From contig NZ_JPOS01000038.1 in the NCBI RefSeq assembly GCF_000759025.1, positions 186,001 through 250,000 of the forward strand: a stretch of DNA of 64,000 bases, in the 5' to 3' direction. Every line of letters starts with the position of its first letter. The stretch's first letter is position 1. A model generated the notes under the pieces. The model was given only the letters and a program-made list of their open reading frames with translations, did not search any database and was not told where the DNA came from. Below are positions 12,181 through 19,749 of this stretch, piece after piece. This stretch comes from Phaeodactylibacter xiamenensis (GTDB taxonomy: Bacteria; Bacteroidota; Bacteroidia; Chitinophagales; Saprospiraceae). The position numbers and the translations under genes were made by a program.

Positions 12181-12346
12181 GGGAAAAAAATGCGGGTATT
12201 GGGCAAGGAGCTGCCGTTTGGGGGACCAAACTTAACATTCATTTAATCCGCCTTTCACCGGAACACCGGGAAAGATTCCGATATTGGCATTGTGCTTATC
12301 CAGCGCCCTCAACTATGCTTTCTTTACCTATTAAATCCAAATATCG

Positions 12347-15300
12347 ATGAATGTTTTAAATCCCCCCCCCCCCCCGCGCTTGCTCAATTGGCTTGCCATG
12401 CTGCTCCTGACCACCGCTTCGCCTCTTTCCGCACAGCTTTTGCTGCAAGAAGGGTTTGAGGTGGAAAGTTGTGTGCCTGTCAATCTTAATTGTGAGCCAG
12501 GGCTTACTGAATTGGTTGATGCTAACAATTGTCTGAATGGCTGGAGCCGGTGGCATGGATCGCCAAATATATCTATAAATAATAACCCCCCAGAGGGTAC
12601 ACAAGCCTTAAGGCTAAGGTGGGATTTGCCTGAGAACTTCCCACCAAACATTTTTTCTGAAGGAGTTATTGCTAATTTACCCTCCGGCTTAGCAGTGGGA
12701 GATGAAGTGCAGTTATCCTTACAGGTTTTTGTGAATTCAGGTAATGATATCTTAATTGAGCTTTTATTGAGTAATGGTATTCAGCCCATTCCATTACCAA
12801 ATGGTGGCAATTCTTGCCTGCAACAGCCTGTAAATCCGAATAATTTTCAGATGCTTGCAAGCATTCCTGCTGATAATTTAGGAAGTAATTGGCAAACCAT
12901 AACAGTGCCTTGTACCCAAGTGACCGGTAATTTCAATCAGCTAGCCCTTCGTTTAGCAACCGTGAATAACCCTAGCAATAACGGAAATCAAGGCAGTATT
13001 TTTTTCGACGACATCCAACTCCAAAAAGAGCCCACCTTCACTGAGCCCACCGCTACCATCACCAACATAACCGGTGACCTGTGCAGCGGCGATGCCTTAT
13101 CGGTGACTTACGAGATATGCTCGGACGAAGACGTGATCCTGGATTTTACCCCTTTTGCCAGCCCTGCTAGCATTTCGATCATACCGCCCAGCCAAAGTGC
13201 CAGTGTCAGTTCTGGAATGTGTAAGACCTTCACTTTTACCTATAATGAAACAACAGAACTGCCTTTAGGGGCGCCTATTACGCTGGGGCTAAACTATACA
13301 GTAAGCTATGACGGTTCTGTTTGCAGCTACACCTCTACGGGGACGCTCAGCCAGTCTTTAGAAAAGTACTGCTTTGCCGAGGAAGCCTGCCTGCCGGATG
13401 GCCAGCCATTTTATGCCCTTTCCGGAGGCAACTTCAGTGCACTATTGAGTGAAGGGCTCCTTCCGCCAGCTCAAGCAGCTACCACCCCGCAGTTTTTGTA
13501 CTTTGAAGGGGATGCGGTGGTGGATTTTGCCAGTTATACTTTTGCGCAAGGCTCCATATTGTATTTTGACGAAGGTGTGGAACTTACCGTACCTAATGGG
13601 AACAGTCTGGAGGGTCTTAAATCAGAGTTTAATGGATGCGAGCGCATGTGGAAAGGGATCACTGTGGAGGGCGGCGGGTTTTTATCCTTAGAATCCTGTA
13701 CGGTATCGGGTGCCCAATACGCCGTGCAAGCCTTGCATAATTCAACCATACTAATTGCAAACAACTTCTTTCAGGACAATTACATTGGGATTTACAAGCC
13801 CAATACCATGTCAGCCTCGCCGGAGCAGGTCAATCAACCACTTCCGATTGCGGGCAATACCTTCGAGGGTACTGCGGCTGGCTTATTGCCGCCCTATCCC
13901 GGACAGGCACCTGCACCGGGCACAAGTGGGCTGGCAGGTATCGTAGCATCCAATTGCAACCTGCTGGAAGTGGGGATAGGGAGTACACCCAATAGTAACT
14001 TTTTCCGGGAGGTGCGCAATGGTCTGATCACCTTCAATACCGGCTTAAGGCTTAGAGGGGCTAATATCTCAGACCTGTCCGGTAGCTTTAACCCCACTAC
14101 TATTGCGTTCCCTTCTGCCTTTGCCAACTTCCACAACCTAAGGGGGCATGGTGTTTTTTCGGGGCTTAACGACAACAGCGCTGCTCTGGTTTTTATTGGC
14201 TACAGCCACTTTGAGGGACTGACGCGCTGTACCCATATCGAGAACCAATCGGGCATTGCGACGGTCAATTTTGACTTGAATACTTCCATAGATACAAAGG
14301 ATGGGCTGATAGCAGCTAACCACAGTGGGTCTACAGTTTTGAAGGAAGTATCCGATAATAACCTGGAATTTGAGCAATATGGGATTGCCGGGCTGAACAG
14401 CAGTGGTGTTATCCCATTCTTTGGTGTGCGCGGCAATACCCTAACCCAACTGAACAACAGCAGCTACCCTTTCACAGCTGGCGTGCTTTTCTCCAATGCC
14501 ATCAACCCTTCGGGCAATAGCTTTGTCCGGGATAATTCAATAGGGATGACGGATGCTGACGGGCATGGCGTGTCTTTGTCCTTTGTAGACAGAGTGGTAG
14601 TGGAGCGCAACCTGGTCGCCCATACCGGCAGCTCCACGCTGATCAAGCAGGAAGGTGCCGGGATCCATCTTAGTGAAAGCGGAGATAACAACAACATCCG
14701 GGAAAACACCGTGACCTTCAATATGCAGGCTGAGCGCCACAATACCCGGGGCATTGAAGTGCTAAACACTGCCTACACTTACCTCTGCTGTAATACGACC
14801 GACGGGCACCGCACCGGGCTGCGCTTCAAAGGGGCTTGCCCTGATACCCGCTACCGTCAGAATGATTTCTTCGACCACGATACCGGGCTGCGCTGTGAGT
14901 CTGATGCCGTGACAAGCCTGCAAGCCCACGCTGGGAATGAGTGGCTGGGGAGTTATAGCATTCAGAAAGCACTTCATTCGGGAGGGAGTTTTGAAGTAGC
15001 CAATTCATTATACTTGGTTAATTTTAGTACAAATCCTCCCATGACAACTATGAACCCCTTACCCAATGTAAGTACGCCTAACACACCGCTACTATGGATA
15101 CTTTCTGACGATGGCTTCGAAGCAGAAAACTGCGAAGCCGACCAGGTTTGTGGGGAAACCCGTAACCCCAAGCTTTCCCGCTATGATAGCACTGCTGTAG
15201 AAGGGGAATACCTGGGGGCCGGTGAATATGGCCCCACCCGGGACTGGCGGGGCAGGCGGTCGGTTTACCAAAAGCTGCAAGCCCATCCGGAACTGCTGAA

Positions 15301-16150
15301 TGACAATCCACTGATGACCGCTTTTTGGGAAGAGGCCGCTAACACCGAAGTTGCAACGGTAGGAGAAATGGAAAACGGCACTCAGCGTTTGTTTGCACTG
15401 GATAGTGAGGCCGAAGCTCAGCTTGCTGAAAACGGCGCACAGTTGGAAGGGTATCTGCTTAGCATAGTTCAGCTAGACAGTATTTTGAGTACGGAGCTTT
15501 CACCGGTAGATTCAATAGCCTATCAGGCAGAGCGGGCCGAGCTCCGGGAGATGCTGGAAGGGGCTTTAGCGCAACGCTCTGGCTGGGTTGCAGATTGGTA
15601 CAGCGGCGTACCAGCCGAAGCATCCGGTCTGCTCAACGCCGGTGGAGAAACAGCTACAGCGTTGCAGGCGACCGCTAACGAATGGACCGTCTTCCAGATA
15701 CTGCTGGAAATGACAGCCACCTCATCCCCTGCGCTTTCCAGTGAACAATGGCAAACCCTCCTTCAAATTGCTCAGCAGTGCCCGGACGAAGGCGGAAAAG
15801 GCGTACTGCACGCCCGTACAGTGCTGGCAGCCTATGAGTCCATGGCGTACGATGATGAAGCACTCTGCAATCCCGAGCAGCCCTTTCAGGCACCGAGCTC
15901 CGGCAGCAGCACTGTCAGCGAATTGCGCGCCTATCCCAATCCGGTACAAAACAGCGTGACGCTACAGTGGCAGGATGCTGCTCAGGAGCTAAGCCTGTAC
16001 AGAGCGGACGGGCAGCGCGTAGCCCAATTCAATCTGCAAGCTACTGACCGCTTTCTGGAGGTGGATTTAAGCGCTTACCCGAAAGGGCTGTGCATTGCTG
16101 TGGTTCATTTGATGGACGGCAGCACCCAAAGCGTAAAGGTCATTAAGTAA
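12347..16150 (+). CDS. Large T9SS-exported beta-helix surface protein, possibly phase variable
   Basis: The 1267-residue protein has an unusual signal peptide (MNVLNPPPPPRLLNWLAM...SAQ, about 1-30) whose PPPPP is encoded by a run of 14 C. An N-terminal beta-sandwich-like region follows (LLLQEGFEVES to IFFDDIQLQ, about 31-225), then a short Ig-like stretch, then Asn/Gly-rich right-handed beta-helix repeats (about 400-860: NNFFQDNYIGIY, GNTF, VRDNSIGM, VERNLVAH). It ends in a T9SS type A sorting domain (YPNPVQNSVTLQW ... VKVIK, about 1195-1267). It should be exported across the outer membrane and fixed at the surface; adhesion or polysaccharide binding is likely but not proven. The first ~660 nt are distinctly more A/T-rich than the rest. 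Confidence 0.85.
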   Translation: MNVLNPPPPPRLLNWLAMLLLTTASPLSAQLLLQEGFEVESCVPVNLNCEPGLTELVDANNCLNGWSRWHGSPNISINNNPPEGTQALRLRWDLPENFPPNIFSEGVIANLPSGLAVGDEVQLSLQVFVNSGNDILIELLLSNGIQPIPLPNGGNSCLQQPVNPNNFQMLASIPADNLGSNWQTITVPCTQVTGNFNQLALRLATVNNPSNNGNQGSIFFDDIQLQKEPTFTEPTATITNITGDLCSGDALSVTYEICSDEDVILDFTPFASPASISIIPPSQSASVSSGMCKTFTFTYNETTELPLGAPITLGLNYTVSYDGSVCSYTSTGTLSQSLEKYCFAEEACLPDGQPFYALSGGNFSALLSEGLLPPAQAATTPQFLYFEGDAVVDFASYTFAQGSILYFDEGVELTVPNGNSLEGLKSEFNGCERMWKGITVEGGGFLSLESCTVSGAQYAVQALHNSTILIANNFFQDNYIGIYKPNTMSASPEQVNQPLPIAGNTFEGTAAGLLPPYPGQAPAPGTSGLAGIVASNCNLLEVGIGSTPNSNFFREVRNGLITFNTGLRLRGANISDLSGSFNPTTIAFPSAFANFHNLRGHGVFSGLNDNSAALVFIGYSHFEGLTRCTHIENQSGIATVNFDLNTSIDTKDGLIAANHSGSTVLKEVSDNNLEFEQYGIAGLNSSGVIPFFGVRGNTLTQLNNSSYPFTAGVLFSNAINPSGNSFVRDNSIGMTDADGHGVSLSFVDRVVVERNLVAHTGSSTLIKQEGAGIHLSESGDNNNIRENTVTFNMQAERHNTRGIEVLNTAYTYLCCNTTDGHRTGLRFKGACPDTRYRQNDFFDHDTGLRCESDAVTSLQAHAGNEWLGSYSIQKALHSGGSFEVANSLYLVNFSTNPPMTTMNPLPNVSTPNTPLLWILSDDGFEAENCEADQVCGETRNPKLSRYDSTAVEGEYLGAGEYGPTRDWRGRRSVYQKLQAHPELLNDNPLMTAFWEEAANTEVATVGEMENGTQRLFALDSEAEAQLAENGAQLEGYLLSIVQLDSILSTELSPVDSIAYQAERAELREMLEGALAQRSGWVADWYSGVPAEASGLLNAGGETATALQATANEWTVFQILLEMTATSSPALSSEQWQTLLQIAQQCPDEGGKGVLHARTVLAAYESMAYDDEALCNPEQPFQAPSSGSSTVSELRAYPNPVQNSVTLQWQDAAQELSLYRADGQRVAQFNLQATDRFLEVDLSAYPKGLCIAVVHLMDGSTQSVKVIK
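12362..12375 (+). repeat. Homopolymeric C14 tract in signal-peptide codons
   Basis: Fourteen consecutive C residues lie five codons into the adhesin gene. As given, the frame is open. Loss of one C would cause a stop at TGA 12408-12410, and gain of one C a stop at TGA 12457-12459, so slippage would switch the gene off. Long G/C tracts of this kind are known contingency loci in other bacteria. Confidence 0.9.
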
Positions 16151-16165: not shown

Positions 16166-16204
16166 AAGCCATGCCACTTGAAGTTTTCAGGTGGCATGGC
16201 TTTT
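16166..16204 (+). terminator. Rho-independent terminator
   Basis: A 17-bp stem (AAGCCATGCCACTTGAA paired with TTCAGGTGGCATGGCTT, one G-U pair) closes a 3-nt loop and ends in a TTTT run, 16 nt after the stop of the beta-helix protein. The ATG used by the ORF track for the next gene (16171) lies inside this stem, which supports the later start at 16219. Confidence 0.85.
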
Positions 16205-16218
16205 CTAATATACGAGTC

Positions 16219-17982
16219 ATGCGGTATTTAATCGTTTGTTTACTTCTGTTTGGTAGCCCTCTTCTACACGCCCAATTACACGACTACAATTGGATGATGG
16301 GATACAGCGGTGGGGAAGGTACAGATACTACGAATGAGTTTGGGCTGATGTGGTGGAGGTTTGAGGATGAGAAACTTGAGGTCATTGATAACCAGGCAAT
16401 AGGGCAAGCTACGCTTTGGTTTAATAACGCAGTTTACAGTGATAGTATTGGTCAACTATTCTTGTATTATGATGGTCAAGATGTTTATAATCAAACGCAT
16501 TTGCCCATGGACGGTGGGGCCGATTGGCATGAGACCGAATATGCTACAGGATGGATAGGTACACAACTTGGTTTAGCTCTTCCACTCCCGGGCTCAGAGC
16601 GTCATGTTTCTATCGTTAATTCTACAACTAACTCTTTTCCTGGACTAACGGTAACCACAAACTTCGCTGGGGAAGGTTTATTGTTCTCTATCGTTGATCA
16701 AACAGAAAACGATGGTTTGGGCAGAGTGATACTACGCAAGGAAGAGATCTCACAAGACACTCTTGATCCTGGCAAATTGAGCGCCTGTCGTCATGCCAAC
16801 GGTCGGGATTGGTGGGTGATTGTAGCCCGTTACACCTTGAATGAGTTTCACCGCTTCCTCCTTACCCCCAACGGGCTTGAATGGAGGGGCACTCAACAAA
16901 TTGGTGAAGGAGGGAATATAGGTCTTGGGCAGGCCTTTTTTACACCGGATGGCAATAAGCATATCCGATATAACAGCGTAGGGGGCGGAGAGCAAGACCA
17001 TTTATCCATATATGATTTTGACCGTTGTACTGGATTGCTCAGCAATCCCCGTCAGGAAGCTTTTGATCAGTTTGGTGGTGGCGGTGGGGCGTCAGTGGCA
17101 AAAGGCTCCCGGTATTTATACCTTGGAGCGGGTATTCATCTTTATCAATATGATCTTTGGGCAGCAGATATTCTTTCAAGCCGCACCTTAATAGCCGAAT
17201 ACGATGGTTTTATTGATTTTAACCCGACCACTTTCCACTCCTCCCAACGCGGCCCAGATGGTAAAATCTATATTTGCGGAGGTTTTGGTACTCGCTATAT
17301 GCACGTCATCCACAATCCTGATGCGCCCTGCCCGGATTGCCGTATAGAACAACGTGGCCTAGAGTTGCCCACCTTCAATGCAGGCTCCGTCCCCAACTTC
17401 CCCAACTATCGCCTCGGCCCAATAGACGGCAGTCCATGCGATACCCTAGGCATCGACAATATCCCGCTCTCCCGCTGGCGCTATGAGCAGGATACGCTCA
17501 CGCCCTTCACGGTGCAGTTTTACGACCTGAGCGACTACGAGCCGGCCACCTGGTCCTGGGACTTTGGGGAAGGCAGCAGCAGTATGGATACCCTGCCCGC
17601 TCATACGTTCCCCGGCCCCGGCACTTACGAGGTCTGCCTTACCGTCAGCAATGCCAATGGCAGTGACACGAAATGCAAAACGCTGGAGTTTACAGAGCCC
17701 GTCACGGCCACCGAGCAAGCGGAAACAGCCCCACTTGCCACTGCTTTCCCGAACCCCTTCCGGGAGCGCTTCAGCCTTTCGCTGCGGGCAGGTTGGCTGC
17801 CCGTACAAGCCGATGCCGTGGTATACGATGCGATGGGCAGGCCCGTCCTCACGCAGCGCCTGTCGGCCGGCTTCAACACGCTGGATTTGAGCGGGTGTCC
17901 GTCGGGCGTCTATACCTGGCGGGTGGAGGAGCAGGGGCGCGTGCTGGAAGTGGGGAAGGTGGTGAAGATTGGAAACCGTTAA
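16219..17982 (+). CDS. T9SS-exported protein: beta-propeller-like N-domain, PKD domain, sorting domain (copy 1)
   Basis: This 587-residue protein has a signal peptide (MRYLIVCLLLFGSPLLHAQ), a roughly 380-residue propeller-like region with DGKIYI and HVIHNPDAPCPDCRIEQ motifs, a PKD domain (about 425-500: PFTVQFYDLSDYEPATWSWDFG ... YEVCLTVSNANG) and a T9SS sorting domain (AFPNPFRERFSLSL ... VGKVVKIGNR). I start at ATG 16219 because the signal peptide begins there. It is a tandem paralogue of the next gene, 12 nt downstream, and the last 582 nt of the two are almost identical. It is probably a surface-exposed or released protein; no enzyme signature is visible. Confidence 0.85.
   Translation: MRYLIVCLLLFGSPLLHAQLHDYNWMMGYSGGEGTDTTNEFGLMWWRFEDEKLEVIDNQAIGQATLWFNNAVYSDSIGQLFLYYDGQDVYNQTHLPMDGGADWHETEYATGWIGTQLGLALPLPGSERHVSIVNSTTNSFPGLTVTTNFAGEGLLFSIVDQTENDGLGRVILRKEEISQDTLDPGKLSACRHANGRDWWVIVARYTLNEFHRFLLTPNGLEWRGTQQIGEGGNIGLGQAFFTPDGNKHIRYNSVGGGEQDHLSIYDFDRCTGLLSNPRQEAFDQFGGGGGASVAKGSRYLYLGAGIHLYQYDLWAADILSSRTLIAEYDGFIDFNPTTFHSSQRGPDGKIYICGGFGTRYMHVIHNPDAPCPDCRIEQRGLELPTFNAGSVPNFPNYRLGPIDGSPCDTLGIDNIPLSRWRYEQDTLTPFTVQFYDLSDYEPATWSWDFGEGSSSMDTLPAHTFPGPGTYEVCLTVSNANGSDTKCKTLEFTEPVTATEQAETAPLATAFPNPFRERFSLSLRAGWLPVQADAVVYDAMGRPVLTQRLSAGFNTLDLSGCPSGVYTWRVEEQGRVLEVGKVVKIGNR
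17401..17982 (+). repeat. 582-nt direct repeat, copy 1 (PKD plus T9SS sorting domain)
   Basis: This 3' end of the first paralogue matches 19168-19749 over its full length without an indel. The encoded proteins differ at only about seven of 190 positions, whereas the upstream parts of the two genes are far more diverged, which suggests recent duplication or gene conversion of the C-terminal module. Confidence 0.9.
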
Positions 17983-17994
17983 AACTATTGTCTT

Positions 17995-19749
17995 ATGCGG
18001 TATTTTATTGGTTGTTTACTTCTATTCGGTAGCGCTGTCCTACATGCCCAGCTTCACGATTATACCTGGCTTATTGGTTACGGTGGAGGGCCGGGCACGC
18101 CTACGGACGATAATTTTGGACTGTCTGAATTAGATTTTCACGGCGAGGAGCTGATCATCAAGGAAGTAGAGATCAGCGAAGCAGAATTTTACGCCAATAA
18201 TGTCAGTTTTAGCGATGCAGATGGAAAATTAGTAATGTATTTTGATGGAATGAATGTATTCGGAAGTAACCATCACATTGCAGATAATGGCACAAATTGG
18301 TTCGAAGGGGAATTAGAAGGTGGATGGTATCAGGCTCAATCTAGTTTAGCTTTGCCTTCTTCGTTAGAACCTGATTGTGTTCATTTTATTAATATTGAGC
18401 AAAATCTATTAAGTATCCCTCCCGATACATTGGACGTTTTTGGTGAGAAGCTGTACTATTCTTGCGTAGTCAAGAACGAAAATGAGTTAACTGTTGTGAT
18501 TAGAAAACAATTATTGCTTCATGATACCTTAACTCTTGGAAAACTAACTGTCTGCCGACACGGAAATGGCAGAGATTGGTGGCTATTAGTGCCAGAATTA
18601 TATGGATGGAAAGTATTTCGATTTCTAATTACTCCTGAAGGAATCGAGCAGTATTCTGCGTTATTGTTGGATCAATGGCTTGCCGATGGATTGGGCCAAG
18701 CAAAGTTTAGCAGTAATGGAGCCCATTATATGCGGTATAATGGAATATCTTCTACAGCGGGCGAATGGGTAACGATTTGGGACTTCGACCGTTGCACCGG
18801 GCAGCTTAGCAACCGGCAGCAGGGCAACTTCCCAATCGGGGGCTCGAGCGGTGGTGCGGCTATATCCAAAAACAGCCGCTACCTGTACACGGCCTCCAAC
18901 ACTTTGCTCTACCAGTATGATCTTCAGGCTGAGGAGGTGCTCTCGACCCGAACGGTAATTGCCGAGTACGACGGGAATCTCGACCCTTTGCCTACTACTT
19001 TTTATCAGATGCAGCTGGCCCCGGACGGCAAAATATATATCAGCTCACCGGGGAGTGTGTTCAGCCTTCACGTTATTCACAATCCAGATGCAATATGCCC
19101 GGACTGCCGCATTGAGCAGCATAGTATCGAACTCCCATTTTATAACTATACCTCTATCCCCAATCAGCCCAACTACCGCCTCGGCCCCATAGACGGCAGC
19201 CCCTGCGATACCCTTGGCATCGACAATATACCGCTCTCCCGCTGGCGCTACGAACAGGATACGCTCACGCCCTTCACCGTGCAGTTTTACGACCTGAGCG
19301 ACTACGAGCCGGCCACCTGGTCCTGGGACTTTGGCGAGGGCAGCAGCAGCACGGATACCCTGCCCGCTCATACGTTCCCCGGCCCAGGCACCTACGAGGT
19401 CTGCCTCACCGTCAGCAACGCCAATGGCAGTGATACGAAGTGCAAAACACTGGAGTTTACAGAGCCCGTCACGGCCACCGAGCAAGCGGAAATAGCCCCG
19501 CTTGCCACTGCTTTCCCCAACCCCTTCCGGGAGCGCTTCAGCCTGTCGCTGCGGGCAGGTTGGCTGCCCGTACAAGTCAATGCCGTGGTATACGATGCGA
19601 TGGGCAGGCCCGTCCTCACGCAGCGCCTGTCGGCCGGCTTCAACACACTGGATTTGAGCGGGCACCCGGCGGGCGTCTACACCTGGCGGGTGGAGGAGCA
19701 GGGGCGCGTGCTGGAAGTAGGGAAGGTGGTGAAGATTGGTAATCGGTAA
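17995..19749 (+). CDS. T9SS-exported protein: beta-propeller-like N-domain, PKD domain, sorting domain (copy 2)
   Basis: The 584-residue protein repeats the layout of its upstream neighbour: signal peptide (MRYFIGCLLLFGSAVLHAQ), propeller-like region with APDGKIYISSPG and HVIHNPDAICPDCRIEQ, PKD domain and a T9SS sorting domain ending VGKVVKIGNR. The start lies 12 nt after the stop of copy 1, so the two are cotranscribed. Codons about 25-260 are A/T-rich, while the C-terminal module is G/C-rich, giving a mosaic look. No catalytic residues are recognisable. A surface role through T9SS is well supported by the sorting domain; the binding partner is unknown. Confidence 0.85.
   Translation: MRYFIGCLLLFGSAVLHAQLHDYTWLIGYGGGPGTPTDDNFGLSELDFHGEELIIKEVEISEAEFYANNVSFSDADGKLVMYFDGMNVFGSNHHIADNGTNWFEGELEGGWYQAQSSLALPSSLEPDCVHFINIEQNLLSIPPDTLDVFGEKLYYSCVVKNENELTVVIRKQLLLHDTLTLGKLTVCRHGNGRDWWLLVPELYGWKVFRFLITPEGIEQYSALLLDQWLADGLGQAKFSSNGAHYMRYNGISSTAGEWVTIWDFDRCTGQLSNRQQGNFPIGGSSGGAAISKNSRYLYTASNTLLYQYDLQAEEVLSTRTVIAEYDGNLDPLPTTFYQMQLAPDGKIYISSPGSVFSLHVIHNPDAICPDCRIEQHSIELPFYNYTSIPNQPNYRLGPIDGSPCDTLGIDNIPLSRWRYEQDTLTPFTVQFYDLSDYEPATWSWDFGEGSSSTDTLPAHTFPGPGTYEVCLTVSNANGSDTKCKTLEFTEPVTATEQAEIAPLATAFPNPFRERFSLSLRAGWLPVQVNAVVYDAMGRPVLTQRLSAGFNTLDLSGHPAGVYTWRVEEQGRVLEVGKVVKIGNR
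19168..19749 (+). repeat. 582-nt direct repeat, copy 2 (PKD plus T9SS sorting domain)
   Basis: This is the second copy of the 3' module described for 17401-17982. It has the same length with no indels and only scattered substitutions. Such a pair is a substrate for homologous recombination that would delete one paralogue or exchange their tails. Confidence 0.9.

Follow-up and report, generated by a model that had tools for sequence, protein, structure and literature searches.

Leader repeats in known phase-variable systems

Phase variation by homopolymer slippage has been studied mainly in pathogens, where it is usually attributed to host immunity, and the tracts of Campylobacter and Neisseria are spread over many kinds of genes, including those for glycosylation and surface sugars. 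Among the described systems, the opa genes of Neisseria, a set of paralogues for surface proteins, carry CTCTT pentamers where the leader peptide is encoded; the copy number sets the reading frame, and the genes switch independently (PMC3960869). Repeats near the 5′ end are likewise found in the outer-membrane protein genes sabA and oipA of Helicobacter pylori, where they undergo slipped-strand mispairing, while intragenic poly-G/C tracts of Campylobacter and Neisseria form a genome-wide phasome of frame-switching genes (PMC8355987). Homopolymeric tracts at the 5′ end have been surveyed as general sites of gene inactivation, with poly-A and poly-T over-represented, and a text search found no mention of Bacteroidetes in the main text of that survey (Orsi et al. 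2010; PMC2831843). The literature searched, subscription papers excepted, contained no account of phase variation by homopolymers in Saprospiria or of T9SS cargo.

The locus compared here with these systems is a tract of fourteen C residues (C14) in the window, by which the whole 64-kb stretch of analysed DNA is meant. As in opa, the repeat lies in the signal-peptide coding region, the repeat number sets the frame, and several genes of one genome carry it. Unlike opa, the repeat is poly-C rather than a pentamer, one leader is common to unrelated proteins, and the cargo is not a β-barrel adhesin but a β-helix, β-propeller, protease or lipoprotein, in many cases with a T9SS tail. By analogy, the locus may be regarded as mechanistically Opa-like leader-repeat phase variation, which would work like opa without being opa. 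It shares with sabA and oipA a repeat near the gene start, but differs from them in the repeat unit (CT in oipA), the secretion route and the presence of a shared leader module. The G/C homopolymer and the frame switching are features in common with the Campylobacter and Neisseria phasomes, although here the tracts precede the core of the signal peptide in exported proteins rather than being spread over many gene kinds. As in the survey of Orsi et al. (PMC2831843), the tracts lie near gene 5′ ends as putative reversible off switches. We consider it very probable that C14 is a translational phase-variation (contingency) switch within a leader module used on several unrelated secreted-protein genes. 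Leader-repeat switching on T9SS-tailed proteins and a leader shared by unrelated proteins are, as far as the literature searched shows, new.

The C14 tract and the window gene

The tract is located at positions 12362-12375 (+) in the context ATG AAT GTT TTA AAT CCC CCC CCC CCC CCG CGC, occupying codons 6-9 and two bases of codon 10 of an open reading frame at 12347-16150 (+) which encodes a predicted secreted protein of 1267 amino acids and is in frame (ON) in the assembly. A preliminary description had placed the tract in codons 6-10 and had located stops at 12408 and 12457 following the loss or gain of one base, and both points are borne out by the computed translations: C14 gives 1267 amino acids, C13 only 20, ending at a TGA at 12408-12410 (+), and C15 only 37, ending at a TGA at 12457-12459 (+). 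C14 is the only C/G run longer than 7 in the 64-kb window, where runs of 4, 5, 6 and 7 occur 289, 54, 5 and 1 times, respectively, and a pattern search of the 7.87-Mb genome returned no C/G tract longer than this one. As is expected of contingency loci, a repeat well above chance length is thus found inside a coding region, and a change of one unit shifts the frame of the gene and introduces an early stop.

The tract falls after the start codon, in the n-region that precedes the hydrophobic core of the predicted signal peptide. The N-terminal leader (12347-12436, +) is translated as MNVLNPPPPPRLLNWLAMLLLTTASPLSAQ, and the N-terminus LAMLLLTTASPLSAQ resembles, on inspection, a typical Sec signal peptide, with cleavage probably occurring after ...SAQ. 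A NosD/right-handed β-helix was identified at residues 650-852 (14294-14902, +; Pfam PF05048; E-value 1.2e-9; 38 bits against a cut-off of 23.6), while the C-terminal residues 1196-1267 (15932-16147, +) resemble a T9SS type A sorting domain but score below the curated cut-offs of both Pfam (Por_Secre_tail, PF18962; 25 bits against 27) and NCBIfam (TIGR04183; 18.6 against 23). The earlier designation of the protein as adhesin-like thus receives partial support, from the β-helix and a sub-threshold T9SS-type tail. Opa β-barrel homology is absent from the Pfam and NCBIfam results, which comprise the β-helix and the sorting-like tail only. Directly downstream of the gene, two T9SS-type proteins with a PKD domain are encoded in tandem (16171-17982 and 17995-19749), and their C-terminal parts are nearly identical.

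A leader module shared by unrelated proteins

The 134 bp preceding the tract (12228-12361, +), comprising the predicted promoter, 5′UTR and start, are shared with a paralogue of the window gene, L116 (95.5%), and with L057 (91.8%), the closest relative of the window gene from a second species of the genus. The border of this segment is sharp, with no similarity found upstream of it among the three genes. The same pattern is seen in genes with different bodies: L033 and L039 have 153 bp in common up to the tract (89.5%) and nothing found in common in the 900 bp after it, the two copies of L122 have 220 bp in common at 92% followed by only 23 bp, and L120 and L121 have a short leader in common but not the body. 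Judging from these alignments, the predicted promoter, the start codon and the tract form a module common to otherwise unrelated proteins. The further proposal, that a reusable cassette of promoter, 5′UTR, start and poly-C moves as a unit before unrelated secreted proteins and renders their genes stochastically on or off, so that members of the T9SS-bearing family would run an opa-like phasome on what they secrete or display, seems to us evenly balanced between being right and wrong.

Long C/G tracts in the genome

Pattern searches of the genome harboring the window returned 26 C/G tracts of at least 9 and 38 of exactly 8, of which the surroundings were read for 26/26 and 30/38, respectively. 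Leader-associated tracts make up 2/30 of those of length 8, 1/12 of those of length 9 and 7/14 of those of at least 10, and the association is stronger for the last class than for lengths 8-9 (7/14 vs 3/42; Fisher p 0.0012). The longest tracts of the genome cluster in the leaders of large secreted-protein genes, and a rough Poisson calculation, assuming an estimated 490-1000 large genes, places the chance of finding at least 6 of the 26 tracts in large-gene leaders below 1e-7.

The search for similar tracts in other surface genes, suggested in the preliminary description, revealed C8-C11 at the same place in six further secreted-protein genes, all OFF. The clean leader loci of the genome thus number seven, namely the window gene (C14, ON) and six OFF genes with long intact reading frames. 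In four of the latter the tract length that would open the frame can be stated together with its product: L033 (C9) would yield 1315 amino acids with C8, L039 (C11) 968 with C10, L055 (C11) 1063 with C12, and L045 (C10) 1254 with C11. In L331 and L345, both C8, one additional C restores the frame. L034, L031 and L043 are further copies of the L045 gene in which the body is broken or the start has been exchanged, and they were left out of the clean set.

Over half of the genome's long C tracts are found away from leaders, in some cases within intergenic repeats. A variable C9-C12 tract is found in six mostly intergenic repeat copies with no obvious leader behind it (L032, 4017-4027; L035, 4026-4034; L042, 4067-4075; L044, 3998-4007; L047, 4044-4055; L052, 3976-3986). 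A similar A/T-rich stretch follows the tract; the clearest copies read (G/A)CGATATTTCCAAATTTTTG here, usually with ...AAAAAACATTG farther along. The repeat may act as a promoter switch or may be mobile.

Tract variation and selection among homologues

In the relative L057 (87%) the tract is C7, two more bases are absent and the gene is in frame, as is the paralogue L116 (84-85%) with C5; each differs from the window gene by 9 bases in all and uses the same ATG. Homologues without the tract that start at a downstream methionine, named beforehand as evidence against a switch, did not occur, the C7 and C5 relatives using the same methionine. A long tract is not required for an open window gene, and the tract is much longer here than in the closest relatives. 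The observed alleles of the window gene (C14, C7 and C5) are all in frame, whereas both ON and OFF alleles of one gene are seen for L033 (C9, OFF) and its same-genus orthologue L274 (C8, ON), which share 82-83% identity over 1259 amino acids. Variability of tract length among homologues, a further property of contingency loci, is therefore observed for both genes (C14/C7/C5 and C9 vs C8).

The dN/dS ratio is 0.25-0.27 between the window gene and its relatives, 0.23 for L033-L274, 0.21 for L055-L331, both of which are OFF, and 0.21 for L045-L043. On these ratios, purifying selection acts on the OFF copies, in keeping with reversible switching rather than with long decay.

A distant paralogue of the window gene, L117 (34%; C93:28450-32205, within G000:C93:26000-38000, minus strand), has an 8-bp tandem repeat, ACGCTCTT, at the gene start, directly after the ATG. 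Four full copies and a part copy are present and leave the gene OFF, while three or six copies would turn it ON; like a single C, the unit of 8 bp is not a multiple of 3. The occurrence of this repeat at the poly-C position suggests that selection favors a frame-shifting repeat in the leader irrespective of its unit.

Leader tracts in the family and beyond

Raw pattern counts are weak evidence for the distribution of such loci, with ATGA near C9 present in 62 and ATGA near G9 in 56 of 150 family genomes and reversed pattern controls not much rarer. The context of reading frame and signal peptide is what separates poly-C sites from controls. The family sample consisted of sites with ATGAA within 37 nt of at least C9 in up to 150 genomes, among the matches listed, and a leader tract was called where an open reading frame of at least 150 amino acids directly follows the tract and the N-terminus contains a hydrophobic core. 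Among the matches listed, leader tracts were found at 25/54 ATGAA-near-C9 sites vs 2/20 poly-G control sites (p 0.006); 23 of the 25 were called by the strict cut-off, while the window gene and L033, which fall just below it, were added. Six of the 25 are ON and 19 OFF, vs one-third ON expected (binomial p 0.22), and the ON share is thus close to the one third of a freely drifting frame. Since the frame drifts freely, the tract is not kept for the protein, in agreement with the earlier suggestion that it is maintained for switching. A T9SS tail matched at an E-value of 0.01 or better in 14/27 proteins scanned. The leaders of L119, the first copy of L122, L128-L130, L147 and L150 are lipobox-like; others end in AQ.

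In the second genome of the genus (G098), one of the 21 examined tracts of at least 9 is a leader tract (L118; C11, ON), and an orthologue search with L118 in the genome harboring the window returned domain matches only. Leader-tract load and repertoire size differ between species, and the enrichment is not uniform.

The same layout was observed, among the matches listed, in Pontibacter (L181, ON; L228, OFF), Pedobacter, Bacteroides and Alistipes, and it is therefore not limited to Saprospiraceae. An Alistipes MAG of 1.7 Mb (G158; L166/L410, L407) contains 12 C tracts of at least 9; two of these lie within, or immediately after, leaders of the lipoprotein type, and each of the two is OFF. This hints at a switch of the poly-C leader type in gut Bacteroidota.

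Proposed switch and alternative explanations

Slipped-strand mispairing at replication would add or remove a C in the tract. This mechanism, documented for tracts of this sort in Neisseria, Helicobacter and Campylobacter (PMC3960869, PMC8355987), is taken to be the cause. In-frame lengths (C14, C11 and C17) would give the full exported protein, while other lengths would put translation in the wrong frame and stop it after at most 37 codons, either short of the end of the signal peptide or a little beyond it. With the signal-peptide frame lost and an early stop, OFF alleles would export nothing, and the presence of the module on several unrelated genes would provide a population with many ON/OFF combinations of secreted proteins. 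We infer that switching is reversible within a population, that the product is displayed on the surface through T9SS and that the cell benefits from the variation. An internal start at the ATG at 12398 is unlikely to bypass the switch, as its leader, MLLLTTASPLSAQ, would have no charged n-region. The phase-variation reading of the preliminary description is strengthened by the six further leader loci and by the difference of one C between the OFF and ON alleles of L033 and L274.

Such a switch would represent pathogen-type logic applied throughout a large bacterial family to proteins that are secreted or on the surface, many of them T9SS-tailed. If these bacteria are free-living, selection would probably come from phages, grazers, competitors or changing surfaces. 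OFF frames resemble pseudogenes, and automatic annotation may truncate or discard them; the secretomes of these genomes may therefore be undercounted.

An unlikely alternative is programmed recoding, in which RNA polymerase or the ribosome slips on the tract, so that every tract length yields some in-frame product and the DNA length is of little consequence. Intact OFF reading frames under purifying selection would also be explained by this mechanism, and dual start codons in different frames precede the tracts of L119, L120 and L146. However, described transcriptional slippage takes place mostly on A or T runs (PMC3711429), tract length (C8 to C15) and frame vary freely, and the C5 and C7 relatives of the window gene manage without a long tract.

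Neutral expansion, whereby mutation bias lengthens C runs in genes that are dispensable, the OFF copies being pseudogenes of recent origin, is very unlikely. The many long tracts outside leaders are in its favor, as is the broken appearance of L031 and L034, but it accounts poorly for the concentration of tracts in the interval from start codon to signal-peptide core across many unrelated genes, for the far rarer poly-G at this site, for the dN/dS near 0.2 of OFF pairs and for the existence of an ON orthologue of an OFF gene (L274/L033).

An error in homopolymer length, such that the gene would always be in one frame, is hardly credible: long C runs are error-prone and contigs end inside C10-C13 tracts, but errors of this kind can neither create the tract nor place tracts repeatedly at one and the same site in many genomes, and the C8 vs C9 distinction between orthologues lies within the reliable short-read range. 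The contig ends in question (L050 end, L051 start, L142 end and L154 start) look as if the assembly broke at length mixtures or homopolymer errors.
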